Positions 1 to 33,090 of a stretch of 33,090 bases of DNA are shown here, piece by piece. Below the pieces are notes generated by a model, which did not search any database, was not told the DNA's origin, and worked only from the letters and a program-made list of their open reading frames with translations. Made by a program: the position numbers and the translations under genes. Where the stretch lies: positions 1 through 33,090 of IMG/VR virus record IMGVR_UViG_3300031963_000571; one strand, given 5' to 3'. Source of the stretch: a virus. Positions within the stretch are counted from its first letter, which is position 1, and each line of letters starts with the position of its first letter.

Positions 1-207
1 CATCTTTTATAAATACCTTTGATTCTTCTTTTATACCCCCAAATCTTATTACTTCGTTGTACGCCTTGATAATGTCTTCCTCGTCATAGATAATCAAAGG
101 AAGGGGTGTTAAATCAATTTCTGGTAGGGTTGTAACTTCTTTCTTCTTCTTACAGGATGTACAACCTTTCTTTTTCTTTGGAGGATTTTCTATTGCTTCC
201 TGTTTTG
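1..207. repeat. Terminal overlap repeat, copy 1
   Basis: Bases 1-207 match 32884-33090 base for base except at positions 128, 129 and 200. The repeat lies wholly inside one open reading frame that continues on both sides, so joining the ends gives an intact gene and a circle of about 32,883 bp. Three mismatches in 207 argue for the overlap of two slightly different population variants rather than an exact packaged terminal repeat. Confidence 0.93.
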
Positions 208-247
208 CTTTGTTAATCTTTTCCAATATTTCGTTATTCGTATCCAT
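1..247 (-). CDS. Cys-motif small protein spanning the circular junction (N-terminal part)
   Basis: An ATG at 247 opens a frame that runs off the left edge. On the circle it continues into 32883-32768, giving a 120-aa protein. It begins MDTNNEILEKINKAKQEAIE and then has a lysine-rich segment with a CxxC (GCTSCKKKK). A second CxxC (CASC) lies near the C-terminus, in the part encoded at the right edge. Paired CxxC motifs suggest metal binding, but I recognise no family function. The start overlaps the end of the sigma-factor gene by 14 nt, and the stop overlaps the small-terminase start (TAATG). It therefore sits inside the regulatory-to-late operon, between the sigma factor and the packaging genes. 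A start at internal TTG 97 would drop the first CxxC and is less likely. Confidence 0.85.
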   Translation of the reverse strand, partial: MDTNNEILEKINKAKQEAIENPPKKKKGCTSCKKKKEVTTLPEIDLTPLPLIIYDEEDIIKAYNEVIRFGGIKEESKVFIKD

Positions 248-782
248 TATAATCATTAAGTTTTTGAATTACATTATTTCTAATTTGGTCCTTACTTTCT
301 TTGATATATTTTATAATTGAACTTTTTGGAATTTCTGTGTGTTTTGCCACTTTATTAACTGAACCAAGGGTTAAATACAAATCCATAAGTGACTTGTGAA
401 ACCACGTTAATTCACTATATTCCTTTTCTAATATATCAAATAATTTTTGTTTTTCAAAGAATTTCTGTTCTTCTGATACTTCAAATAAACTATCTATATT
501 TACATTTGAAATGAAACTATCGTATTTGAGAAACTCTCTACGCACTTTATAGTAGAATGGACTGGTTTTACTTATCCAATTGATACGGATGATTGATACT
601 ATATAATATTTGATACTACAATCATCATAGAACTTTAGATTGATATGTTCTTTCTGATACAATTGAATTATAACCTCGTGTAGTAAATCCTGCGTTAAAT
701 CGTGGTTCTTGGTTATTTTCTTTGTTATTTGAAGTAACTTATAGTAATTAACCGTTATATACTTCTCAACTTCTTTGTTCAT
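234..782 (-). CDS. ECF-like RNA polymerase sigma factor
   Basis: A 182-aa protein with the two-domain layout of a sigma-70 family ECF factor. Residues 13-45 resemble regions 2.1-2.2 (YYKLLQITKKITKNHDLTQD, then LLHEVIIQLYQ), the core-binding helix. Residues 55-85 would be regions 2.3-2.4. Residues 130-170 form a region-4-like helix-turn-helix (GSVNKVAKHTEIPKSSIIKY). The size is typical of ECF factors. The gene overlaps the 89-aa gene upstream by 17 nt and the Cys-motif gene downstream by 14 nt, and lies just ahead of terminase and all virion genes. Redirecting host RNA polymerase to late promoters is the natural inference. Target promoters are not proven. A non-sigma HTH regulator is the alternative. 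Confidence 0.75.
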   Translation of the reverse strand: MNKEVEKYITVNYYKLLQITKKITKNHDLTQDLLHEVIIQLYQKEHINLKFYDDCSIKYYIVSIIRINWISKTSPFYYKVRREFLKYDSFISNVNIDSLFEVSEEQKFFEKQKLFDILEKEYSELTWFHKSLMDLYLTLGSVNKVAKHTEIPKSSIIKYIKESKDQIRNNVIQKLNDYNGYE

Positions 783-1035
783 TAATTAAATTTCTAATAC
801 TGGTCATTACCTCACATATCTCGTAATTCTCACAGGCTTCGTTAACCATTATACTTGATTGAAGTAATTTATCCAATACATCTATTCTGTTTATACCTCT
901 GTTGAGGTTATGGTCTAATATGGTTAACATACTATCAAGTAACGTTAAACATAACTGGTCTTTTTCTTCCTCAGTCATCTCCCAATAAGATGCTGGTATT
1001 TCAAGTTCCCCTACTTTGACGTGTCTCGTTTCCAT
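766..1035 (-). CDS. Hypothetical 89-aa acidic protein
   Basis: Not recognised. The protein is acidic and predicted helical (METRHVKVGELEIPASYWEM at the start), with two cysteines in the C-terminal half and no membrane segment. It starts 35 nt inside the end of the zinc-finger/HTH gene and ends 17 nt inside the sigma-factor gene. Such tight overlaps indicate translational coupling in one operon. Its position directly before a sigma factor makes an accessory role (anti-sigma or co-activator) conceivable, but nothing in the sequence shows it. Confidence 0.8.
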   Translation of the reverse strand: METRHVKVGELEIPASYWEMTEEEKDQLCLTLLDSMLTILDHNLNRGINRIDVLDKLLQSSIMVNEACENYEICEVMTSIRNLINEQRS

Positions 1036-1690
1036 ATTCAGTACAAATTTTCATTACTGTATTTTCTGATACACCAATTTTATTTGCTATTTTTGCTCTG
1101 GTCCAATTTCTCTTTCTATAATCTAAAACTTTGAATATCATTTCATCTGTTACTATTCCTCGTCTTAAAGTATATTTCCTTTTCCTTAGTTGAGTAAAGA
1201 CTGGTTTACCATCTATTACTTCTTTCCAACCAGGTTTAATCCAAATACCAGAAGCTTCATCATATAAATATCCAAGAAGTTGCATAAGTTCAAAAGTGTT
1301 AGCACGCTGGTACTCATCAAAATAAACATTAGGTTTTTGAGGCACCATTTTACTACCACCATTCAATTCTCTTAACTTTTCTGCTTCTATTCTATCTGAT
1401 ACCTTTTGACAATCCTTGCACTTTTTGGTTATTACTTTTCCATCTCTTAGATAATAATAACTAATTTCTTTCCAAGTTTGGCAAGTATTGCATTTGCAAT
1501 AATTTGGATTATTTTGATAAAACTTATCTCTATCTTCTTTTTCCAATTTAATTCTGTTTTTATATTGTTGCTTCTGTTTTCTATAACAAGATTTACAATA
1601 CTTTCTGGTGCGTATTTTATTTTGTGTAGAATGAAAATAGGTATCATACTGGTCAACTGGTTTATCTATTGAACATTTTCTACATATCAT
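1001..1690 (-). CDS. Zinc-finger protein with C-terminal HTH
   Basis: A 229-aa basic protein. The N-terminal half has four CxxC knuckles: CRKC (3-6), CKSC (about 32-35), CNTC and CKDC (about 60-95), so it probably binds two zinc ions. The C-terminal part has a resolvase-type helix-turn-helix (WTRAKIANKIGVSENTVMKI). The frame is open upstream to a TTG at 1711, but ATG 1690 is preferred because it starts immediately before the first CxxC and lies clear of the terminator hairpin at 1714-1748. It is probably a DNA-binding regulator. A degenerate homing-type nuclease is an alternative, although I see no HNH or GIY-YIG catalytic residues. First gene of the operon leading to the sigma factor and late genes. 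Confidence 0.75.
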   Translation of the reverse strand: MICRKCSIDKPVDQYDTYFHSTQNKIRTRKYCKSCYRKQKQQYKNRIKLEKEDRDKFYQNNPNYCKCNTCQTWKEISYYYLRDGKVITKKCKDCQKVSDRIEAEKLRELNGGSKMVPQKPNVYFDEYQRANTFELMQLLGYLYDEASGIWIKPGWKEVIDGKPVFTQLRKRKYTLRRGIVTDEMIFKVLDYRKRNWTRAKIANKIGVSENTVMKICTEYGNETRQSRGT

Positions 1691-1708
1691 AAATACTTTT
1701 CTTTTCAA

Positions 1709-1748
1709 CAAAAATCCCGCTGACTAATGGCACTAAGTCAAGCGGGAT
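1709..1748 (-). terminator. Rho-independent terminator / possible attenuator
   Basis: On the minus strand an 8-bp stem (ATCCCGCT / AGCGGGAT at 1714-1721 and 1741-1748) plus an inner 4-bp stem is followed by five T residues. It lies downstream of the initiator gene and only about 20 nt before ATG 1690 of the next gene. It therefore either ends the initiator transcript or acts as a leader attenuator for the regulatory/late operon. Confidence 0.75.
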
Positions 1749-1782: not shown

Positions 1783-1797
1783 CTATATATAAATATA
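1783..1797 (-). promoter_or_regulatory. Candidate TATATTTATATA element upstream of regulatory/late operon
   Basis: The minus strand reads TATATTTATATATAG in the short gap between the initiator stop (1821) and the terminator hairpin. No TTTG/TAnnTTTG promoter is visible here. Similar elements occur in other gaps (8135-8150, 8521-8531, plus strand 3459-3472). It may be a phage-specific promoter, but A/T richness alone could produce it. Confidence 0.25.
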
Positions 1798-3447: not shown

Positions 3448-3471
3448 CATAGTATTGATATATTTATATAT

Positions 3472-3546
3472 GGGGAGGACGAGAAACCTGATATTTTCAT
3501 CTATTCTAAATTTGCCATTTTATAATATATCGTCCTCCCTTTTTTT
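3472..3546 (+). ncRNA. Candidate structured RNA or leader closed by a long-range stem
   Basis: GGGAGGACGA (3473-3482) is perfectly complementary to TCGTCCTCCC (3530-3539), enclosing 47 nt and followed by six T residues. TATATTTATATATG (3459-3472) immediately precedes it and could be a promoter. The structure ends exactly at ATG 3547 of a membrane peptide. It is either a terminated small RNA of about 75 nt or a 5' leader that controls the peptide. No homology to a known RNA family was recognised. Confidence 0.4.
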
Positions 3547-3681
3547 ATGAAGAAACACATAGAAGATTTAATTGAAGTTATTATCACTATGTTGGCATTT
3601 ACAGTCGGAATGTTCCTAATGTTTTTTATTTTTAATTTCGCTTGGGCTTTGGTAAAGTCATTTTTTTCTGTTATATTTTAA
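3547..3681 (+). CDS. Small membrane peptide (44 aa)
   Basis: MKKHIEDLIEVIITMLAFTV opens the frame, and a hydrophobic segment of about 25-30 residues follows to the end, rich in Phe, Leu and Val with one Trp. It has a short charged N-terminus and a single predicted transmembrane helix, and no cleavage site is evident. The size fits a small holin-like or membrane-acting peptide, but no family is recognised. The start directly abuts the T-run of the structured element at 3472-3546, and a strong terminator follows at 3714. It is an isolated single-gene unit. Confidence 0.55.
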   Translation: MKKHIEDLIEVIITMLAFTVGMFLMFFIFNFAWALVKSFFSVIF

Positions 3682-4076: not shown

Positions 4077-4108
4077 TTTGGTGGTTAAATATAAATGTAT
4101 TAACTTTG
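4077..4108 (+). promoter_or_regulatory. Bacteroidetes-type promoter for the 71-aa gene
   Basis: TTTG (4077-4080), 20 nt, TAACTTTG (4101-4108). The -7 box lies in an inverted repeat, TTAACTT (4100-4106) and AAGTTAA (4116-4122), so the start site would be within or next to a 7-bp dyad. Confidence 0.88.
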
Positions 4109-4375: not shown

Positions 4376-4407
4376 TTTGGTGGGGAATGAAAAGTTCCCT
4401 ACCTTTG
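4376..4407 (+). promoter_or_regulatory. Bacteroidetes-type promoter of candidate small RNA
   Basis: TTTG (4376-4379), 20 nt, TACCTTTG (4400-4407). The spacer holds an inverted repeat GGGAA (4382-4386) / TTCCC (4395-4399), a possible operator. No start codon follows before the terminator at 4453. Confidence 0.8.
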
Positions 4408-4508: not shown

Positions 4509-4540
4509 TTTGGATATTCTAAAATGTTGCAATAACTTTG
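4509..4540 (+). promoter_or_regulatory. Bacteroidetes-type promoter for the 4583-5646 operon
   Basis: TTTG (4509-4512), 20 nt, TAACTTTG (4533-4540), a full consensus match. TTTGT-GGAA-ACAAA follows as a short dyad over the expected start site, as in the other two TAACTTTG promoters. Confidence 0.88.
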
Positions 4541-8129: not shown

Positions 8130-8504
8130 TTAATCTTGTATATAAATATAATTGGAATTATCTTCATCTGGTGAAACATATTCTGTGAATGGATTTGACT
8201 CCTGTGTTCCATTTAATTGTGCCATACCTGTATATACAAGGTTGGAACCATTACCAAATATTTGAAGTTGATATTGTCCTAAGTAATTTAAGTCTTGTCC
8301 CGCATTTTGTAAATTGAGAATTATTTCACAATATCTATCATTCTCAGCATATTGTGCGGGATTTGATGTACTGACTGTATATGATTTTACTTCTTGTGAT
8401 ACAACGTGTGTGAATGTCAAAGTATAACCTGAAAAATCAGTTCTTGAATTGTTATTAATGTTTAACACCAATTCATTTTGTTGACCTTTGTTTAATATTA
8501 GCAT
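8130..8504 (-). CDS. Beta-sandwich virion-associated protein (hypothetical)
   Basis: A 124-aa protein starting MLILNKGQQNELVLNINNNS. It alternates short hydrophobic strands with Asn/Thr/Ser turns (YTLTFTHVVSQEVKSYTV; GQYQLQIFGNGSNLVYTGMA), reading as an all-beta, Ig- or BppU-like fold. The C-terminus is acidic and Tyr-rich. Similar small beta proteins sit next to portal genes in related phages. Assignment as head decoration or neck fibre is inference. It is preceded by a terminator (8563-8590) and a 60-nt A/T-rich gap, so it may begin a new transcript with portal, adaptor and the genes after it. Confidence 0.6.
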   Translation of the reverse strand: MLILNKGQQNELVLNINNNSRTDFSGYTLTFTHVVSQEVKSYTVSTSNPAQYAENDRYCEIILNLQNAGQDLNYLGQYQLQIFGNGSNLVYTGMAQLNGTQESNPFTEYVSPDEDNSNYIYIQD

Positions 8505-8520
8505 ATTAGTGACTGTATAA

Positions 8521-8531
8521 CTATAAATATA
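8521..8531 (-). promoter_or_regulatory. Candidate A/T-rich promoter element before the portal cluster
   Basis: The minus strand reads TATATTTATAG between the terminator at 8563-8590 and ATG 8504. The same word occurs at 1783-1797 and 8135-8150. Because a terminator lies upstream, a promoter for 8504-5742 is expected about here. The element itself is unproven. Confidence 0.3.
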
Positions 8532-8562: not shown

Positions 8563-8590
8563 AAAAAAAGGGTCCGAAGACCCCTTTTTA
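8563..8590 (-). terminator. Intrinsic terminator with TTCG loop after the tail-tube gene
   Basis: On the minus strand GGGTC-TTCG-GACCC, flanked by A residues upstream and eight T residues downstream. A UUCG tetraloop stem followed by a T-run is a strong terminator. It sits inside the late block, between the tail-tube-like gene and the portal cluster. Confidence 0.85.
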
Positions 8591-16072: not shown

Positions 16073-17023
16073 TTATGGTATTGTACCACTATCAATTGTT
16101 ATTGCTATTTGTTGTATTGATGGTGCGTCCATCACATATGTATAAGTGGTAGCACTTCCTGACGATGATGGACAAGAAGATGATGAACCATTTCCATTCA
16201 TTACACACGCAATACTTGTTCCAAATTCAATACTATCAAATTGTGTTAATCCTGTTATAGTATATAAATTTGTACAACTAATAGGTAATTGTGCACCTGT
16301 ATAACCAGGTACGTTTATTGAACCACCGCCATTAATACTATAAAATAATGTTAAAGTTGATGGTGTTCCATCTACATCTTGACCATAAATTTCTAAACTA
16401 AGACCGCTTGGTTCAGGTGTTGGTGTAGGAGTAGGTGTCGGTGTACTTGTAGGTGTAGGTGTAGGTTCACCTGGTGTAGGTGTAGGAGTACTCGTTGGAG
16501 TAGGAGTTGGTGTTGGTGTTCCCGTAGGTGTTGGAGTAGGTGTTGGTGTAGGTGCAACTAAATTTAAATTTGCACAAACAGGTAAATAACATAACTCACC
16601 AATAAATCTAAATTCAAAATAATACATACCATCTGTAAAACCTGTAAGTCCTACATTTGCGGGTGTAACAGTAAAACTAAAATTATTTGTTGAACTTGTT
16701 GCTGTTGTTCCTGTTGTTGATATGTTATGTACCGTCCTCCAAGGTTTAAAATAACTTTGAGTTGGTGCCAACATATGAATAGAAACAAGAGATAAATCCC
16801 CATTAGATTGTAAAAATCTTTTTGAATTATTTAGACTCCAAGATGTTGTACCTGAAAAGGTAATACTACTTGAACTTACTGTTGTTGCAGTAAAAGTTAT
16901 AACACTTCCACTTACACAATCATCATATATATCGTGTATAATTTCTGTATCATATTCTTTCCTTACTTTGTTTGGATAAACAAAATCTGAATTAACTAAT
17001 TGTCTTATATATTTTCTACTCAT
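16073..17023 (-). CDS. Tail-associated protein with PT-repeat linker
   Basis: A 316-aa protein in three parts. Residues 1-150 are an N-terminal attachment region and a beta domain containing VITFTATT, a word shared with the propeller protein upstream (VSITFTATT). Residues 158-205 are an almost pure Pro-Thr linker. Residues 206-316 are a second beta domain (LSLEIYGQDVDGTPSTLTLF) with several Cys and Ser-rich turns. The attachment-linker-binding-domain layout suggests a host-binding accessory fibre. The PT linker is encoded by hexamer repeats prone to slippage. Binding target unknown. Confidence 0.65.
   Translation of the reverse strand: MSRKYIRQLVNSDFVYPNKVRKEYDTEIIHDIYDDCVSGSVITFTATTVSSSSITFSGTTSWSLNNSKRFLQSNGDLSLVSIHMLAPTQSYFKPWRTVHNISTTGTTATSSTNNFSFTVTPANVGLTGFTDGMYYFEFRFIGELCYLPVCANLNLVAPTPTPTPTPTGTPTPTPTPTSTPTPTPGEPTPTPTSTPTPTPTPTPEPSGLSLEIYGQDVDGTPSTLTLFYSINGGGSINVPGYTGAQLPISCTNLYTITGLTQFDSIEFGTSIACVMNGNGSSSSCPSSSGSATTYTYVMDAPSIQQIAITIDSGTIP
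16409..16552 (-). repeat. PT-dipeptide coding microsatellite
   Basis: About 144 bp of 6-bp units (plus strand GGTGTA/GGAGTA/GGTGTT variants), encoding (Pro-Thr)n with occasional Gly, Ser and Glu interruptions. A flexible extended linker. The repeat number is likely to vary between strains and is a place for assembly error. Confidence 0.85.
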
Positions 17024-17036
17024 ATTATGTTATATA

Positions 17037-17570
17037 TTAATTTTCTCCTATTTGTGTAAATGTTGCAACAAAAGAAGAACTTGCAATAGGCACATCATTA
17101 ACTACTAATACAACACTTGAAGTTGTTGGACTCATATATCTTGCTTCGGTATTTTTAAATTGTTCGGTATCAATATTATAATTAAACATAACATTACCAG
17201 AATAATTGTCTGTAAATGGTGTGGCAAAATTTAGTGTATAATATCTTAAAGAACCACTACCAGGATAAGTCCACCCTGAGGTTCCATTAATAATAAAACT
17301 TTTTGTTTTTAAACCACTATTAGTATTATTTGTTCTTTCCAATTGGTTTGTTGATGTATTATACATTACAACTTGATTTGAAGAACTACCTGATGGAATA
17401 TCTGTAACTCTTAATGAACCTGTAATTGTTGCATTACCATTATAAGGAAATACCCAATTCTCTTTTCTAACTTTATATGTAGCGGCAGAACCACTATCAT
17501 TCATTACTATATAACTACCTGAGGTATTTCCACCATATTCAGGTAGTTGTGATATTTTTATATTTGACAT
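17037..17570 (-). CDS. Short tail-fibre-like protein
   Basis: A 177-aa protein starting MSNIKISQLPEYGGNTSGSY. The ISQLP opening is common at the N-terminus of phage fibre and collar proteins and probably mediates attachment. The middle (NATITGSLRVTDIPSGSSSN) resembles the TGSL repeats of the 1241-aa fibre, and the C-terminal 90 residues form a beta domain (SLRYYTLNFATPFTDNYSGN). It lies between the propeller protein and the PT-linker protein, so this is a cluster of three host-contact candidates. Precise role unproven. Confidence 0.65.
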   Translation of the reverse strand: MSNIKISQLPEYGGNTSGSYIVMNDSGSAATYKVRKENWVFPYNGNATITGSLRVTDIPSGSSSNQVVMYNTSTNQLERTNNTNSGLKTKSFIINGTSGWTYPGSGSLRYYTLNFATPFTDNYSGNVMFNYNIDTEQFKNTEARYMSPTTSSVVLVVNDVPIASSSFVATFTQIGEN

Positions 17571-17582
17571 ATTTATAAATAT

Positions 17583-19166
17583 TTATAAATCTATTATTAA
17601 ATTTAATTCGTTTTCTGTTGTTATTGATTCTGATAATTCTGTCATTAATTCAATTTCTATATTATCACACATAAGTAAATTACCATCTCTATCACATTCA
17701 AATATTTTTCTATATGTGTTTCCGTTAACAGTAACAAATCCTCCACCCACTATTATATTACCATTATCTCTTACTGCAATACTTTCTTGTGTAGCAGAGA
17801 ATGTTTGGTCAAATAGAACGGGATTGAATGTTGTATCTAATGAACCGTCTGAATTTAATCTATATAAACCATCTATATCAGGGGATGTACTTGTAACTAA
17901 CATTAAAATTTTATTATCAGGTAGAACATAAAAATCTGTAACAACCTCACCCACAAAATATGTATCTGTGGTAAATGTTGTATCTAATGAACCATTTGAA
18001 TTTAATCTGGCTAAACCATAAGATGTACTTCCACTTATGGGAAAATCAAATATTCCACCTATCATTATTTTACCATCTGATAAAATTTCTGTAGTTAAAA
18101 CATTTGATGCAGTACCAATTGTACCAGCAAATGGTGAAGTGAAAGTACCATCAATTGAACCGTCTGAATTTAGTCTTACAATTTTATCTGCTGATGCAAC
18201 ATTATTGTAATTTAAAAAATCCCCACTAATTAACATTTTACCATCAGAATATAAACTAATATCGGTTATAATTTGTGAACTACCTGCACTATTTGTATTA
18301 CCACTAAAACTTGTATCTATACTACCGTTGGAATTTAATCTACATATATTTCTAATCGATGTTCCATTATAAGAGGTAAAATTACCACCAGCTAATATCT
18401 TACCATCTGGTTGTATTTCTAAATCATATATCTGTGGAATTGCACCACCAAAACCTGTACCTGTAACAAATGTATTATCTATGGAATAATTGTTATTAAT
18501 TCTAACAATACCATTTTTTGTTACACCTGAATATGTTGTAAATGAACCACCAAGTAATACCTTCCCATCACTTTGTTGTTCAATTGTAGAAGCAAATGCG
18601 TTTAAAGTTATAACATTAAGAGGAAACGTTGGGTCAATAGAACCATTATTATTTAACACAGTAAAACAACCTGTCACAATACCTTGGTATTGTGCGAAGT
18701 TTCCCATACAATATATCTTATTGTTAATGAGTTTCACTTCTCTTACCGCATAAGAACCGAATGGTGACAAACCCTGATTAAATCCTGTTTGAATATTTAA
18801 ACAATTTTGTACAGTACTATCAACTTTATATTCAAATCCATATGCGTCATTTCTTGTTGTTGCAGTAAATGTTATAGAGACACCAGTTATTCCTGAGGTT
18901 GATGATATGTTTGTTGTTTTAATTCCTCTATCACCATTTTCATCGTCTGTTGTATAGTCAGTTCTTGATATTGATAATGTTTTATCATAATTGTCATCAA
19001 AAAGACTTACTGTAACTACATCCCCAATATTAATATTTGAGGAATATAAATTAGACATACCATAATATGCTCTATATGTTTCATTTCCGTTCACAACAAC
19101 AGTATAATATGGACCACCTAAATCAGAGAAAAACTCGTCAAATGTAACTACTAAAGAACCTCTCAT
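17583..19166 (-). CDS. Delta-60 repeat (beta-propeller) tail adhesin
   Basis: A 527-aa protein. Residues 1-115 are an N-terminal beta domain with VSITFTATTRNDAYGFEYKV. Residues about 120-495 hold seven repeats of about 53 residues with the pattern DGK-I-hydrophobic-GG-x-F-x-x-Y-x-G then LNSNGSIDTSF (for example at 254-287, 307-342 and 363-398). This is the delta-60 repeat signature. Seven copies fit one complete seven-bladed propeller. The C-terminus is acidic. It is likely displayed on the virion to bind surface glycans or proteins. Delta-60 repeats are known mainly from large bacterial surface proteins, so acquisition from a host is possible. Confidence 0.75.
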   Translation of the reverse strand: MRGSLVVTFDEFFSDLGGPYYTVVVNGNETYRAYYGMSNLYSSNINIGDVVTVSLFDDNYDKTLSISRTDYTTDDENGDRGIKTTNISSTSGITGVSITFTATTRNDAYGFEYKVDSTVQNCLNIQTGFNQGLSPFGSYAVREVKLINNKIYCMGNFAQYQGIVTGCFTVLNNNGSIDPTFPLNVITLNAFASTIEQQSDGKVLLGGSFTTYSGVTKNGIVRINNNYSIDNTFVTGTGFGGAIPQIYDLEIQPDGKILAGGNFTSYNGTSIRNICRLNSNGSIDTSFSGNTNSAGSSQIITDISLYSDGKMLISGDFLNYNNVASADKIVRLNSDGSIDGTFTSPFAGTIGTASNVLTTEILSDGKIMIGGIFDFPISGSTSYGLARLNSNGSLDTTFTTDTYFVGEVVTDFYVLPDNKILMLVTSTSPDIDGLYRLNSDGSLDTTFNPVLFDQTFSATQESIAVRDNGNIIVGGGFVTVNGNTYRKIFECDRDGNLLMCDNIEIELMTELSESITTENELNLIIDL

Positions 19167-28468: not shown

Positions 28469-29470
28469 TTATACATTTTTCCAGTCAGTAGATATTGTGT
28501 TCCATAATTCTGCCAGTTCATACCACTTCTTATTTACAAATGGTCTTTCAGGAACGTTACATCTATTGTAGTCAAATGGTTGTGTGATTGTTAAGTTCAT
28601 AGTCCATCCCGCCAATACATCCTCAAATCTTTCCAAAAATGGTTCTACAGTAGCATCCCACTCACTTTCATACTCAGATAAATACAAGAAAGTGAACACA
28701 TCTTTAATTATTTCAAGTGTGTCATTCATCACATCTCTTTGATTTGAGTAGTCATCTTTTAATCTGTCTGCTACAATAACTTGGAAGTTATATGTTAATT
28801 GCATTCGGTCTAATACCGTATCGTTAGGAATTATATATAATTTTGTATATACAGGACTTTGTTTTGTCTGTGTGTCCATTGTCAATTGGGTAAGGTCCCC
28901 AAATCCAAATGAATTTATTTGTTCGTGTGCTATTGATAAATCTCTTAAATCTTGAATGATTTGTTGATAGGTAACTCTATTAACACTTCTTGGAATAGAA
29001 AACCCTTCAATCGGTAAAACACACGTATTATAATCAAAAGGTTGTTCTATAGTTATGTTCATCGTCCACCCACCCAAAACTGTTTCAAACCTTTCAAGGA
29101 AAGGAGTGACGTTTGGACTCCATAATGGGGTATAATCAATTGAGAAACCACCCCAAGTTGCCGTATAAGATTGGTATAATATGGTGAAAATATCCTTACA
29201 AATCTCCAAAGTATCACTCATCACATCCTCTTGATTGGATAAATCCTCATTAACTTGGTCCAATATTATAATTGAAAAGTTATATAACAATCTATTTTGT
29301 GCAAGTTGAACCTGACCAGGTACTACATACATCTTGGTATATACTGGTTCTTGTTTGGTTTCTATATCCATAGTGATTTGTGTCAAATCACCATAACCAA
29401 AAGAATTTATTTGGTTGTGATAATATGCAATACCACTTAAATCTTGGATAATTTGTTTATATGTTACCAT
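28469..29470 (-). CDS. Tandemly duplicated tail-terminator-like protein
   Basis: A 333-aa protein made of two copies of one domain (residues 2-154 and 166-308) plus a short C-terminal tail. Matching blocks include TYKQIIQDL/TYQQIIQDL, INSFGYGDLTQITMD/INSFGFGDLTQLTMD, PVYTKMYVVP/PVYTKLYIIP and TPFLERFETVLGGWTMNITI/EPFLERFEDVLAGWTMNLTI. Single-domain proteins with this pattern are common in Bacteroidetes siphophages as the small neck or tail-terminator component, so the role is inferred. A fused pair could assemble as a trimer of dimers in place of a hexamer. No other duplicated gene was noticed. Confidence 0.65.
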   Translation of the reverse strand: MVTYKQIIQDLSGIAYYHNQINSFGYGDLTQITMDIETKQEPVYTKMYVVPGQVQLAQNRLLYNFSIIILDQVNEDLSNQEDVMSDTLEICKDIFTILYQSYTATWGGFSIDYTPLWSPNVTPFLERFETVLGGWTMNITIEQPFDYNTCVLPIEGFSIPRSVNRVTYQQIIQDLRDLSIAHEQINSFGFGDLTQLTMDTQTKQSPVYTKLYIIPNDTVLDRMQLTYNFQVIVADRLKDDYSNQRDVMNDTLEIIKDVFTFLYLSEYESEWDATVEPFLERFEDVLAGWTMNLTITQPFDYNRCNVPERPFVNKKWYELAELWNTISTDWKNV

Positions 29471-29486
29471 ATATAATAAATATAAA

Positions 29487-30304
29487 TTAAATAGTTTTAG
29501 ATTGTTTTTTCTGTAATTTTATTTGTTCCCTATCATAATCCAACAGAAAAGACAATTGGTTTAATACTGTCATCAACTTTTCTTCGTAGATAAGTTTGTG
29601 TTTCGCAAAATCGTTTCCAGCAATTCTGTTGAGGATAAGGAACCATCCATACGTTTTTTGAAAATTGCTGCGAATATCCATTTCCTCATCACCCACATTA
29701 GTTTCATCTTCATCCATATTGAGAGAGTCGGAATCGAAGATAGATGGGAATAACTTAAAAATCTGTTTGCGTAGTTGATAAAAAAAAACTGTGCTCCAAG
29801 TATATACTTCACATCTAATTTCTTTTTGAACAGTTCCGCCCGTTCCTTCATCGTTTCCACGTTATACTTTTCTATCTTATAATCGTGTTCTGATTTTTCT
29901 TCTATGATTGGTCTATACATTACTGCTGCAAGAATGTGTAGTAACCCTAATAGTTCATCGGCTTTCTTTGTTGAGATAGTATCTAAATCCACAAACTCAG
30001 CAAAGGTTAGTTCCTTCCAATTTGGGAAGAACCCATAATTAACACCATCCAATTCAAATCGGTCAATAAACTTTGGTTTCTCCAAAGGTATATGTGACAT
30101 AATGTATGCAGCAATATATGATACTTGTTCATAATCTGCTTCCAATAGTTCCTCTAATGGTGCGTCTGTAATTATGTTTATAATCTTTGCGGCAAAGTAG
30201 TCATCACTAAATAAATCTTTGACCTTATAAATTTTTGAATAACTTTCTATAGATATAAAATCTGGTATTTGATATTCCTTTTCTTGTAATTTGAATTTTA
30301 TCAT
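29487..30304 (-). CDS. Tail-assembly chaperone-like protein, long form by -1 frameshift
   Basis: A -1 shift at the T9 run (29788-29780) joins the first 175 residues of the frame starting at ATG 30304 to 97 residues in the -1 frame, ending at 29487: 272 aa. After the shift the product reads YQLRKQIFKLFPSIFDSDSL and goes on to an acidic, natural-looking tail (NMDEDETNVGDEEMDIRSNF) and a helical end. A programmed -1 slip on T TTT TTT resembles the G/GT-type chaperones of tailed phages. The N-terminal pattern (LLHILAAVMYRPIIEEKSEH, then YILGAQFFF) resembles chaperone-like tail proteins. The alternative is a homopolymer sequencing error in one continuous gene. Confidence 0.6.
29573..30304 (-). CDS. 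Tail-assembly chaperone-like protein, unshifted frame
   Basis: A 243-aa frame starting MIKFKLQEKEYQIPDFISIE with a 4-nt ATGA overlap with terminase. Residues 1-175 are shared with the long form. Residues 176-243 (INYANRFLSYSHLSSIPTLS and onward) are read in a frame whose composition (WMKMKLMWVMRKW) looks less natural than the -1 frame over the same DNA. Either both forms are made from a slippery site, or the unshifted tail is a by-product. Unlike in most siphophages the gene is not beside the tape measure, which lies about 14 kb away. Confidence 0.6.
   Translation of the reverse strand: MIKFKLQEKEYQIPDFISIESYSKIYKVKDLFSDDYFAAKIINIITDAPLEELLEADYEQVSYIAAYIMSHIPLEKPKFIDRFELDGVNYGFFPNWKELTFAEFVDLDTISTKKADELLGLLHILAAVMYRPIIEEKSEHDYKIEKYNVETMKERAELFKKKLDVKYILGAQFFFINYANRFLSYSHLSSIPTLSIWMKMKLMWVMRKWIFAAIFKKRMDGSLSSTELLETILRNTNLSTKKS
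29780..29788 (-). other. T9 slippery run
   Basis: Nine T residues on the minus strand, read as TTT TTT TTT (three Phe, residues 173-175). They allow a -1 slip to TTT TAT CAA. No stop intervenes in either frame for 68 and 97 codons respectively. No clear downstream pseudoknot was identified by eye. Confidence 0.65.
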
Positions 30305-31629
30305 AATTGCATTATTGCGTATCTACCCGTTGTTTTTTGGGTTTTTATTTCAGGTAACATTCTCATCATTAGTGCGTCTGAAAGGTCAGGTGATTTACCT
30401 AACAATCTTTTCATATCCTCTTTTGATTGGACCGCTACCTTATTATCTTTATCTACATCTTTTAATTTAACACTTAGTAGTTCCTGTGTCAAGTCATCTA
30501 TTACTGCTGGTTCTAATATATTCAAACTAATCTTTCCTTCTCTAAACATATCAGATAGTTTGACATAACATTGTGATTTTAGATTTGAGAAGTTCTGTCC
30601 GTGTAATGGTGATGAGTTATTCACAAAATTTGTTGCTCTTAGAATATCTGCAGTTCCGCCCCCAACACCGTCTGAGTCCACGATACAATTATTTGGATGT
30701 ATCCCGTGAGACCTCATTAGGTCCTGTATATTGGACGATAATTCTGTGGTTGATAGTTTCCTATACACCTTACAATCTATTAGAACCAGTCCTACCCAAA
30801 TCATCACCACAGACCTATCATCACCAAACCTTGCTACGTCAATCGTCATATACTTTTTATCCTGTGTATTTGGTGTATGTTTAAATACTGAATTACTAAT
30901 CTCGTCAAACTTGAATAGACTATCACTCTCATCAAGATAATCCCAATCACCTTCCAATAATCTTCTTCTTTGTTGTGGAGGTAATTCCTTTAACATATCA
31001 AGATAAGATGGTGGTAAGTGTGGATTGTCCATCGGTAAGGATGGAATAAAGACCTTATTATCTTCTAATTTGTTTTGTGTGAATGGTAAATAAAAATCCT
31101 TCTTAATCCAATTGTTAGAAGGGTTACACGTCATCAGTACCTTTGGTATAAAATTATATTCTTTTAGTTTATATCTGATACGTGATTTAACTATGTTGTA
31201 TGCAAGAGATGTTATTTGTGAACTTTCATCTATGAATGCTGCAGATATTTCTAACGAACCTAAACTGTCATAGTTAGGGTCACTTGGGTTGTAGGCTAAG
31301 TCCTTGAATATAATTTCTGATTTGTTATAGAATGTTAATACATTTGACTGACCATTGTAATTGAAATGTTCACCACTCTTTAATCCCATAGTACTGAGTA
31401 AGTCAAAGAGAGTATTGAGTGTTGTTAATCTAAGTTGTGTTAATACGGCACGACCTATTAAACATCTGATACCTGTGTATTTTAAACATAGGGTTACAAT
31501 CCATAATGCACCAAGCCAACTCTTTCCACCACCAGCTGACCCACCAAATAATACCACATTGGTCTTATCATCGGTTAGATACTTCCACGCTTCACTCTGT
31601 CTCTTGGTCGGAGATATTGTTATTTCCAT
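30301..31629 (-). CDS. terL: Terminase large subunit
   Basis: A 442-aa DNA-packaging motor and nuclease. Walker A GGSAGGGKS at residues 29-37, Walker B with acidic pair AAFIDES at 130-136, and an ATPase coupling segment LMTCNPSNNW. The RNase-H-like nuclease has MTIDVARFGDD (261-271), CIVDSDGVGGG (315-325) and PDLSDAL (419-425), supplying the three acidic sites. ATG 31629 is preferred over an upstream TTG (31647) since it opens the conserved MEITISPTKRQSEAW lead. It overlaps the 62-aa gene by 38 nt and the next gene by 4 nt. Length and motifs are normal and intact. Confidence 0.93.
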   Translation of the reverse strand: MEITISPTKRQSEAWKYLTDDKTNVVLFGGSAGGGKSWLGALWIVTLCLKYTGIRCLIGRAVLTQLRLTTLNTLFDLLSTMGLKSGEHFNYNGQSNVLTFYNKSEIIFKDLAYNPSDPNYDSLGSLEISAAFIDESSQITSLAYNIVKSRIRYKLKEYNFIPKVLMTCNPSNNWIKKDFYLPFTQNKLEDNKVFIPSLPMDNPHLPPSYLDMLKELPPQQRRRLLEGDWDYLDESDSLFKFDEISNSVFKHTPNTQDKKYMTIDVARFGDDRSVVMIWVGLVLIDCKVYRKLSTTELSSNIQDLMRSHGIHPNNCIVDSDGVGGGTADILRATNFVNNSSPLHGQNFSNLKSQCYVKLSDMFREGKISLNILEPAVIDDLTQELLSVKLKDVDKDNKVAVQSKEDMKRLLGKSPDLSDALMMRMLPEIKTQKTTGRYAIMQL

Positions 31630-31780
31630 TTCTGAATTGATTGGCAAGTTCCTCAGCGTGTTTATTCATTAACATAGAATGAAGTTCATCAACACTTTGT
31701 GGAACCCTTATCTCCTGTTGTACAGGTTCTGGTTTTAGTTCTGCTTGAACGTTCTTTGGTTTCTTACAATTACATCCCAT
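31592..31780 (-). CDS. Small Cys-motif protein (62 aa)
   Basis: Starts MGCNCKKPKNVQAELKPEPV: a CxC pair at the extreme N-terminus followed by lysines, then a Pro/Glu-rich linker and a helical C-terminus. Short proteins opening MGC(N/G)CKK recur near terminase genes in Bacteroidetes phages. Function unknown. No signal peptide follows the cysteines, so it is not a lipoprotein. It overlaps the terminase start by 38 nt and sits one base after the methyltransferase stop. It recalls the CxxC-Lys segment of the junction-spanning protein. Confidence 0.7.
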   Translation of the reverse strand: MGCNCKKPKNVQAELKPEPVQQEIRVPQSVDELHSMLMNKHAEELANQFRNGNNNISDQETE

Positions 31781-31781
31781 A

Positions 31782-32327
31782 TTATATTCCTGTTCTTTGT
31801 TTTACAATTACATTCTTCTTATGTGCGTGTAGAACACCCTGATAATCTATATCTAAATGTGGGAACTTATAATAATATAACTCATATCCATTATCTCTTA
31901 ACAAATGTTCACAAGATAATAGACAGGACAAATTATGATATTCAATACCAATATGACGACACCCTTCAAGAAACTCAGGTCTCATTGCGTTCATAAAAAT
32001 CTCTGAACCTTCCACATCAATCTTTGCAACAGTTGGTTTAACAACATTAAAATATATTTCAAACTTCTCGGTCCTATCTACATAGTCCATTATTTGAATG
32101 AAATTCTTAACATTGAAATTGTTTTTATACCACTCATAAGATTCTTGTGATGGGTCAACACCATATACCTTCTTTGCATTCTTCTGTATCCAATACATTG
32201 GTGTTGGTGTAAATTCTGAATTAATACCTGAACCTAAATCTAAAATGGTTTCACCATCAACAGGTAAAAAAGACCAGTGATTAACAGGGTCTTCGTTATT
32301 TATTAGTCCTTTTATTTCTCTATTCAT
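31782..32327 (-). CDS. FkbM-type SAM-dependent methyltransferase
   Basis: A 181-aa protein. SAM-binding motif I ILDLGSG at 28-34, acidic loop VYGVDPS at 54-60, and the FkbM-family signature AKIDVEGSE at 101-109, then HIGIEYHN (126-132), complete the methyltransferase core. FkbM enzymes methylate hydroxyl groups on sugars or natural products. It is shorter than many family members but the core looks complete. It is inserted between the two terminase genes, where enzymes are unusual, suggesting an acquired moron. It may modify a surface glycan of host or virion. DNA methylation is unlikely since no DPPY- or target-recognition-type motif is seen. Confidence 0.8.
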   Translation of the reverse strand: MNREIKGLINNEDPVNHWSFLPVDGETILDLGSGINSEFTPTPMYWIQKNAKKVYGVDPSQESYEWYKNNFNVKNFIQIMDYVDRTEKFEIYFNVVKPTVAKIDVEGSEIFMNAMRPEFLEGCRHIGIEYHNLSCLLSCEHLLRDNGYELYYYKFPHLDIDYQGVLHAHKKNVIVKQRTGI

Positions 32328-32381: not shown

Positions 32382-32768
32382 TTAATCTGTTAAATTAATA
32401 TTGATACTGATTGGGTCACCATTTGATGTTATGTCTATCTTACGTTGTTCCAACCCATATAGTTTATTAATGTCGGCTAAGGTTTCCCTTTCCACTCTTT
32501 TGTTATTATCGTTCCTCGCACGTTGAAGTAGGTCAAAATACCTTTGAAGTTGGGCTGAGATAATTTCTTCCGTTTGTTCTTGGAACCTTTCTTTAAGTCG
32601 TGATTTACAATCTTGCCATACATTCTCAGCCTGACGTTCTGTGATTCCATATTTCTTTGAGTATTTTTGTCTAAATTCAGTATAGTTCAACTTCTCATAC
32701 AAAATCATTTCCATCGCATCAGGGATACGTTCTTCATATTCAGCCTCTGTTGTTTTTCTACCAGCCAT
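32382..32768 (-). CDS. terS: Terminase small subunit
   Basis: A 128-aa protein. The N-terminal half carries an HTH-like region (LNYTEFRQKYSKKYGITERQ, then AENVWQDCKSRLKE) for DNA recognition. The middle is a long helix with AQLQRYFDLLQRARNDNNKR, typical of the oligomerisation domain. The end LYGLEQRKIDITSNGDPISI matches the usual small-terminase C-terminus that contacts the large subunit. It selects phage DNA for packaging. The start overlaps the preceding Cys-motif gene by one base (TAATG), and the methyltransferase gene separates it from the large subunit. Confidence 0.8.
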   Translation of the reverse strand: MAGRKTTEAEYEERIPDAMEMILYEKLNYTEFRQKYSKKYGITERQAENVWQDCKSRLKERFQEQTEEIISAQLQRYFDLLQRARNDNNKRVERETLADINKLYGLEQRKIDITSNGDPISININLTD

Positions 32769-33090
32769 TATATTTTTCTTTTGAGTTTATAAAGAATATA
32801 GTTTCTTAATTTATGATATTGAGTATTTTTACAACTGGCACAATTTTCAAATACATATTCTTCGTTGAACAGTTGTTTATACACATCTTTTATAAATACC
32901 TTTGATTCTTCTTTTATACCCCCAAATCTTATTACTTCGTTGTACGCCTTGATAATGTCTTCCTCGTCATAGATAATCAAAGGAAGGGGTGTTAAATCAA
33001 TTTCTGGTAGTATTGTAACTTCTTTCTTCTTCTTACAGGATGTACAACCTTTCTTTTTCTTTGGAGGATTTTCTATTGCTTCTTGTTTTG
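32768..33090 (-). CDS. Cys-motif small protein spanning the circular junction (C-terminal part plus repeat copy)
   Basis: The same gene as at 1-247. The frame is open from the right edge to the stop at 32768-32770. This copy supplies the unique C-terminal 38 residues (VYKQLFNEEYVFENCASCKN and a basic end LRNYILYKLKRKI) with the second CxxC. In the overlapped part it differs from the left copy by one amino acid (Thr-Ile-Leu instead of Thr-Thr-Leu) and one silent change. It is coupled to the small terminase by TAATG. Function unknown. Confidence 0.85.
   Translation of the reverse strand, partial: KQEAIENPPKKKKGCTSCKKKKEVTILPEIDLTPLPLIIYDEEDIIKAYNEVIRFGGIKEESKVFIKDVYKQLFNEEYVFENCASCKNTQYHKLRNYILYKLKRKI
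32884..33090. repeat. Terminal overlap repeat, copy 2
   Basis: The right-hand copy of the 207-bp overlap, with an offset of 32,883 bases. Differences from copy 1 are at 33011, 33012 and 33083. See copy 1 at 1-207. Confidence 0.93.

Follow-up and report, generated by a model that had tools for sequence, protein, structure and literature searches.

An open reading frame (ORF) of 182 residues that overlaps the genes on both of its sides, directly ahead of the terminase and virion genes, raises the question of whether this phage transcribes its late genes with a sigma factor of its own. The initial annotation proposed as much from the letters alone. Here, the window denotes the whole stretch of DNA analyzed, 33,090 nucleotides of an IMG/VR virus record (IMGVR_UViG_3300031963_000571). 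With a probability of roughly 0.7, and from sequence comparisons, we read the gene product as an ECF-like (sigma2-sigma4) factor that serves the phage as late sigma and recognizes the sequence TATATTTA.

The two ends of the window (positions 1 to 207 and 32884 to 33090) share a 207-nucleotide overlap with three mismatches; the phage genome is circular or circularly permuted, with a unit of 32,883 bp and small strain variation. Among named terminases, that of the window comes closest to its counterparts in Flavobacterium phage 11b and Cellulophaga phage phi10:1 (∼44% identity), and a Flavobacteriia host is therefore likely. A pattern scan of GTDB genomes for the sigma gene retrieved no homolog and hence no prophage or host link. 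The overlaps of the sigma ORF first described were confirmed (17 nucleotides with the upstream ORF and 23 with the downstream ORF), as was its place ahead of the packaging and virion genes: the terS candidate, terL, and, beyond terL, a virion block with portal, protease, and tape-measure matches lie on the same strand (Table 1). The methyltransferase-like gene varies among relatives in its place relative to sigma, terS, and terL and lies directly 3′ of sigma in many. The tail/structural block also encodes a 316-residue protein (16073 to 17023, minus strand) with a long (PT)n-rich tract (PTPTPTPTPTG...) and without a PHROG match.

Table 1. Coordinates of genes and sequence elements in the window
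Feature	Position	Strand	Remarks
Cys/Lys-rich ORF, N-terminal part	1..256	-	Overlaps 3′ end of sigma gene; remainder (32768-33090) lies beyond the circular junction
ECF-like sigma-70-family factor, 182 aa	234..782	-	ATG start; sigma2 ∼residues 1-91, linker 87-101, sigma4 ∼104-179
p89, small conserved protein	766..1035	-	Overlaps sigma by 17 nt; beta hairpin and three helices (predicted)
Zn-HTH gene, first of sigma operon	1001..1690	-	Start ATG at 1690; four CxxC pairs, C-terminal helix-turn-helix
Degenerate proximal box AGTATTTA	1690..1697	-	Overlaps Zn-HTH start
Terminator hairpin	1714..1748	-	Between distal box and Zn-HTH gene
Distal late box TATATTTA	1790..1797	-	107 nt before Zn-HTH start
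Host-type early promoter TTTG-N20-TAACTTTG	4077..4108	+	
Host-type early promoter TTTG-N20-TACCTTTG	4376..4407	+	
Host-type early promoter TTTG-N20-TAACTTTG	4509..4540	+	
Late box TATATTTA	8524..8531	-	Closely follows terminator 8564-8589; 27 nt upstream of gene 8130-8504; top PWM score for the window (22.1)
Variant late box AATATTTA	17576..17583	-	13 nt before gene 17037-17570
Late box TATATTTA	29477..29484	-	14 nt before gene 28469-29470; kept at same gene in many relatives
Terminase large subunit (terL)	30301..31647	-	phrog_2, E value 4e-39
Methyltransferase-like gene	31782..32327	-	Between terS candidate and terL
terS candidate	32382..32768	-	By position between sigma and terL only; no family match

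The gene almost certainly encodes a diverged sigma-70/ECF-type factor. In a profile search, the window protein matched TIGR02937 (sigma70-ECF) with an E value of 8e-6 over residues 5 to 169, spanning both sigma regions, at a score of 25.6 bits that falls under the curated cutoff of 42.9 bits. It also matched phrog_1740 (sigma factor; E value, 1e-3). A Pfam search with the window protein gave no significant match and no sigma family, a profile search of PDB sequences retrieved a transposase helix-turn-helix alone (E value, 0.03) and no sigma factor, and tblastn with two family members found no match among named phages. The same profiles were compared with 33 relatives of the window protein, and the structure was predicted from an alignment of these (A1). 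TIGR02937 was matched by 32/33 relatives (best E value, 2.5e-11) and phrog_1740 by 25/33 (best E value, 6.7e-9); weak matches were obtained to TIGR02985 (Sig70_bacteroi1) in 23/33, with the window protein under the family cutoff, and to Pfam Sigma70_r2 in four.

The AlphaFold2 model (pLDDT, 82.8; pTM, 0.45) consists of two helical lobes, with helices at residues 3 to 91 and 104 to 179, and a disordered linker (residues 87 to 101). Both lobes are conserved among relatives, and the pTM is as expected for what the model suggests is a flexible two-domain protein. The predicted architecture is thus that of an ECF factor, with sigma2 and sigma4 joined by a short linker and without sigma1.1 or sigma3. 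When the model was compared with the PDB by Foldseek, the top matches were mostly ECF sigma factors (AlgU, Mycobacterium tuberculosis SigL and SigH, and Escherichia coli SigmaE). The E values were modest, the best being 4.6e-3, for which the hinge is probably responsible; region 4 of E. coli SigmaE in isolation aligned with a TMt of 0.80 and an rmsd of 1.5 Å. The best viral model match was BFVD entry A0A6J7WFY6, with the same fold and 42% identity over the full length (E value, 3e-13). The region 2-like and region 4-like segments of the initial annotation are thus borne out by the span of the family match, the two-lobed model, and a fold search headed by sigma factors.

The sigma gene was present in 98/139 terL loci fetched from IMG/VR, 0.9 to 3.7 kb upstream of terL. 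Only four sigma-less loci had >3 kb of upstream DNA, and three of these (L048, L050, and L074) end short of the expected sigma position, as judged by comparison with their siblings. In the fourth (L077, positions 8 to 400), an HNH-type endonuclease ORF occupies the expected place, directly upstream of the terminase block. One record of 57,002 bases (G007; loci L104 to L106) carries two sigma homologs ∼32 kb apart, with the late-gene signals duplicated, and may be two related phages joined. The gene order Zn-HTH, p89, sigma, (methyltransferase), Cys-rich ORF, terS, terL is kept in >90 IMG/VR loci. Within this order, p89 adjoins sigma nearly always, and in 95/99 loci the two overlap by either 8 (n = 62) or 17 (n = 33) nucleotides. 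A fold search with the p89 model retrieved nothing significant, and no recognized anti-sigma partner was found. Within the operon, the Zn-HTH protein equals sigma itself in conservation; its four CxxC pairs are invariant among relatives, and its C-terminal helix-turn-helix shows a relationship to HTH_23, resolvase, and region 4 of sigma factors.

The primary sigma factor of the Bacteroidota and its promoter are unusual, and a scan for E. coli-type promoters was uninformative, with counts close to the mean of shuffled sequences. Upstream regions of genes on the late and early strands were taken from the window and its relatives; the larger set, drawn from all loci and nonredundant at 80%, comprised 316 late and 113 early regions. 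The host box TAnnTTTG was enriched upstream of early-strand genes (30/113 versus 9.2), and the bipartite host promoter occurred in 8 early regions (versus 0.6). Upstream of late genes, the box stood at chance (18/316 versus 17.5 in shuffled sequences). The window itself contains five TTTG-N16-20-TAnnTTTG sites, against 2.3 expected by chance for the whole window; three lie on the early strand between early genes, and the late strand of the late block has none. Host-type promoters before the early genes and their lack in the late block, both noted from the window initially, therefore hold across the relatives, and the late regions give no sign of promoters with the host consensus.

A different sequence, TATATTTA, is enriched ahead of the late genes. 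It was present in 46 of 150 late upstream regions from 13 genomes or large fragments, versus 3.7 after dinucleotide shuffling (standard deviation, 1.9; maximum, 8), and in 88/316 regions of the nonredundant set, versus 8.3 (maximum, 13), an approximately 10-fold excess. The window taken by itself has no excess of TATATTTA (7 sites versus 7.4 expected); the evidence is therefore positional and from relatives. Single-base variants were mostly at or near chance in the 316 regions. The clearest exception was TATATATA (34 versus 6.0), and TATATTTG (8 versus 1.7) and GATATTTA (8 versus 2.1) were weakly raised. In an EM search started from both frequent and random words, the leading late motif was ttATATtTa....T. 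Across 74 nonredundant sites, the logo shows a T-rich lead-in, a T at −23 (57/74), and TA at +12/+13; when a −35 element was sought in these aligned sites, the T at −23 alone stood out, with no clear −35. The TATATTTA sites, whose pairing with this sigma we infer, thus do not display the bipartite promoter with a conserved −35 element that is an ECF trait. A mild excess in early regions (9 versus 2.4 for TATATTTA and 13 versus 2.4 for its reverse) may stem from late boxes in divergent intergenic DNA and from some wrong strand assignments in loci whose orientation was not set by terL. The T4-like sequence TATAAATA was rejected as a late motif, as it was not enriched on the late strand (3/150 versus 4.6); its reverse-strand form led to TATATTTA.

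Four Bacteroidota phages of other lineages (Flavobacterium 11b, Cellulophaga phi10:1, Polaribacter P12002L, and Flavobacterium 6H; G+C, 0.29 to 0.32) served as controls. The family HMM gave no sigma match in any of them, and TATATTTA occurred in 0/33, 1/34, 1/44, and 0/32 of their upstream regions, respectively, none clearly over shuffles. The host box was enriched in two, 11b (8/33 versus 2.1) and phi10:1 (14/34 versus 2.7). With a control set that is small and of other lineages, the link between sigma and box is a correlation.

Because TATATTTA is the host −7 element TAnnTTTG with its final G changed to A, it could be read by the host primary sigma itself, activated by the phage Zn-HTH protein, and the sigma homolog would then be a minor or degenerate regulator. 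The box differs in the last base only, a change that a relaxed host holoenzyme could accept, and the Zn-HTH protein, co-conserved with sigma and equipped with four CxxC pairs and a helix-turn-helix, could serve as the late activator. In Flavobacterium johnsoniae, however, the G at the end of the −7 element is nearly invariant (PMC6847099), late regions favor A (88) over G (8) at this position, and 11b and phi10:1, flavophages without the sigma, use the box that ends in G. Conservation of both lobes of the phage protein also speaks against a degenerate role, and we consider this explanation unlikely.

The positions of the boxes bear on a second alternative, that TATATTTA is a translation initiation signal of late mRNAs and that sigma has its targets elsewhere, such as in host genes. 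Measured from gene starts, the box starts are most frequent at −11 to −15, −26 to −30, and −90 to −130, and none falls at −10 to +30. Many boxes lie at a fixed 13 to 16 nucleotides ahead of the start codon, a spacing that would fit a leaderless promoter or a translation signal alike. Copies are, however, also found at 20 to 30 nucleotides and at 95 to 120 nucleotides; those of the latter group lie upstream of a terminator hairpin and therefore outside any ribosome site. Several copies directly follow terminators, as with the one ahead of gene 8130-8504 in the window and those at the equivalent gene of several relatives. Known Flavobacterium translation initiation signals are A residues at −3 and −6 (PMC6847099), and TATATTTA is not enriched in the sigma-less controls. 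Given the boxes after terminators and those ∼100 nucleotides upstream of the Zn-HTH gene, beyond the hairpin, the sequence evidence leads us to favor a promoter, and a ribosome signal appears very improbable. Marginally less probable again is a sigma-derived DNA-binding regulator or decoy that is not a functional sigma factor: the weak family scores of the window protein, the pTM of 0.45, and the transposase match in the PDB profile search would suit it, but the match extends over both sigma regions and recurs in 32/33 relatives, ECF factors head the fold search, and a distinct promoter class accompanies the gene.

The region ahead of the sigma operon has a conserved layout. The distal TATATTTA was found in ∼40/50 nonredundant loci and the terminator hairpin before the Zn-HTH gene in 49/50. 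The proximal place is taken in many relatives by GATATTTA or TATATTTA, i.e., a (G/T)ATATTTAT box at the Zn-HTH start codon. Hairpin stems differ by locus, and the apical loop contains T[TCG]CCA in 33/43 distinct loops (versus 3.4 in shuffled sequences); there was no match in Rfam. The boxes ahead of the Zn-HTH gene suggest positive autoregulation of the sigma operon. An RNA of 60 to 75 nucleotides with the conserved loop could possibly be made between the two boxes, as a leader or a small regulatory RNA, and the first sigma molecules could arise, for example, by read-through from early gene 1821-2423. Elsewhere, on the early strand (3459 to 3550, plus strand), an intergenic TATATTTA is followed by an 81-nucleotide hairpin, GGGGAGGACGA...UCGUCCUCCC-U7 (z, −3.15), a candidate small RNA.

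A temporal switch from early to late transcription can be proposed from these observations. Host polymerase with the Bacteroidota primary sigma would transcribe the early genes from TTTG/TAnnTTTG promoters. After its synthesis, the phage sigma would bind the host core polymerase and steer it to a few late promoters with a TATATTTA core. Each of these consists of one −10-like element, preceded by a weakly conserved T at 23 nucleotides from the box start and lacking a clear −35. These sites would drive the packaging/virion operon, and those before the Zn-HTH gene would drive the sigma operon itself in a positive feedback. Transcripts would start ∼5 to 8 nucleotides after the box; under the geometry of phage phiEco32, applied here by analogy, this would be at or just before the ATG of genes with the spacing of 13 to 16 nucleotides, and several late mRNAs are predicted to be nearly leaderless. 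Leaders of F. johnsoniae mRNAs average 33 nucleotides (PMC6847099). The initial proposal that the phage replaces the host sigma for late transcription gains a distinct late box from this analysis; the replacement itself would concern the late genes, as the early genes apparently are still read by the host sigma.

More tentatively, and with the balance of our judgment against the full combination, these elements may form a previously undescribed late system of small Bacteroidota phages. Sigma, Zn-HTH, and p89 would act on a one-element TATATTTA promoter derived from the host −7 box (G to A) to yield near-leaderless virion mRNAs, with self-control by two boxes flanking the conserved-loop hairpin, a possible small regulatory RNA. 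In the open-access literature, we found nothing directly relevant to Bacteroidota phage sigma factors or late promoters and no description of a late-gene switch in small lytic flavophages. The family provides a concrete sigma, promoter sequence, and conserved operon for such a switch, all directly testable, and the sigma/TATATTTA combination could be of use in Bacteroidota genetics as an orthogonal sigma/promoter pair.

Among known proteins, the closest match by sequence and fold is A0A6J7WFY6 of an uncultured Caudovirales phage, annotated as "RNA polymerase sigma-70 region 2" and probably of the same family; nothing was found on its promoter or role. The window sigma shares the sigma2-sigma4 organization of Bacteroidota ECF factors (TIGR02985) and differs from them in its virion operon context, its AT-only box, and the lack of a recognized anti-sigma partner. 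T4 gp55 is likewise a small phage sigma with an 8-bp AT-only −10-like late element (TATAAATA); it lacks a normal region 4, and T4 late transcription needs gp33 and the gp45 clamp. Phage phiEco32 gp36 reads a single-element promoter, tAATGTAtA, with start sites 6 to 8 bp downstream (PMC8948821). Like gp36, the window protein would be a phage-encoded ECF-like sigma for middle/late genes with a single AT-rich −10-like element, but the consensus (TATATTTA) and the host phylum differ, no close sequence relation was seen, and gp36 is without the recognizable region 4 that the window sigma has. Phage 7-11 gp47 is a late-only sigma that works while the host sigma still reads early promoters, and it recognizes the bipartite consensus GTAAtg-16-aCTA (PMC8948821); the window family would share this division of labor but has a promoter without a clear −35. 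The phage sigma is thus best read as a separate family with its own promoter, functionally like phiEco32 gp36 and 7-11 gp47.
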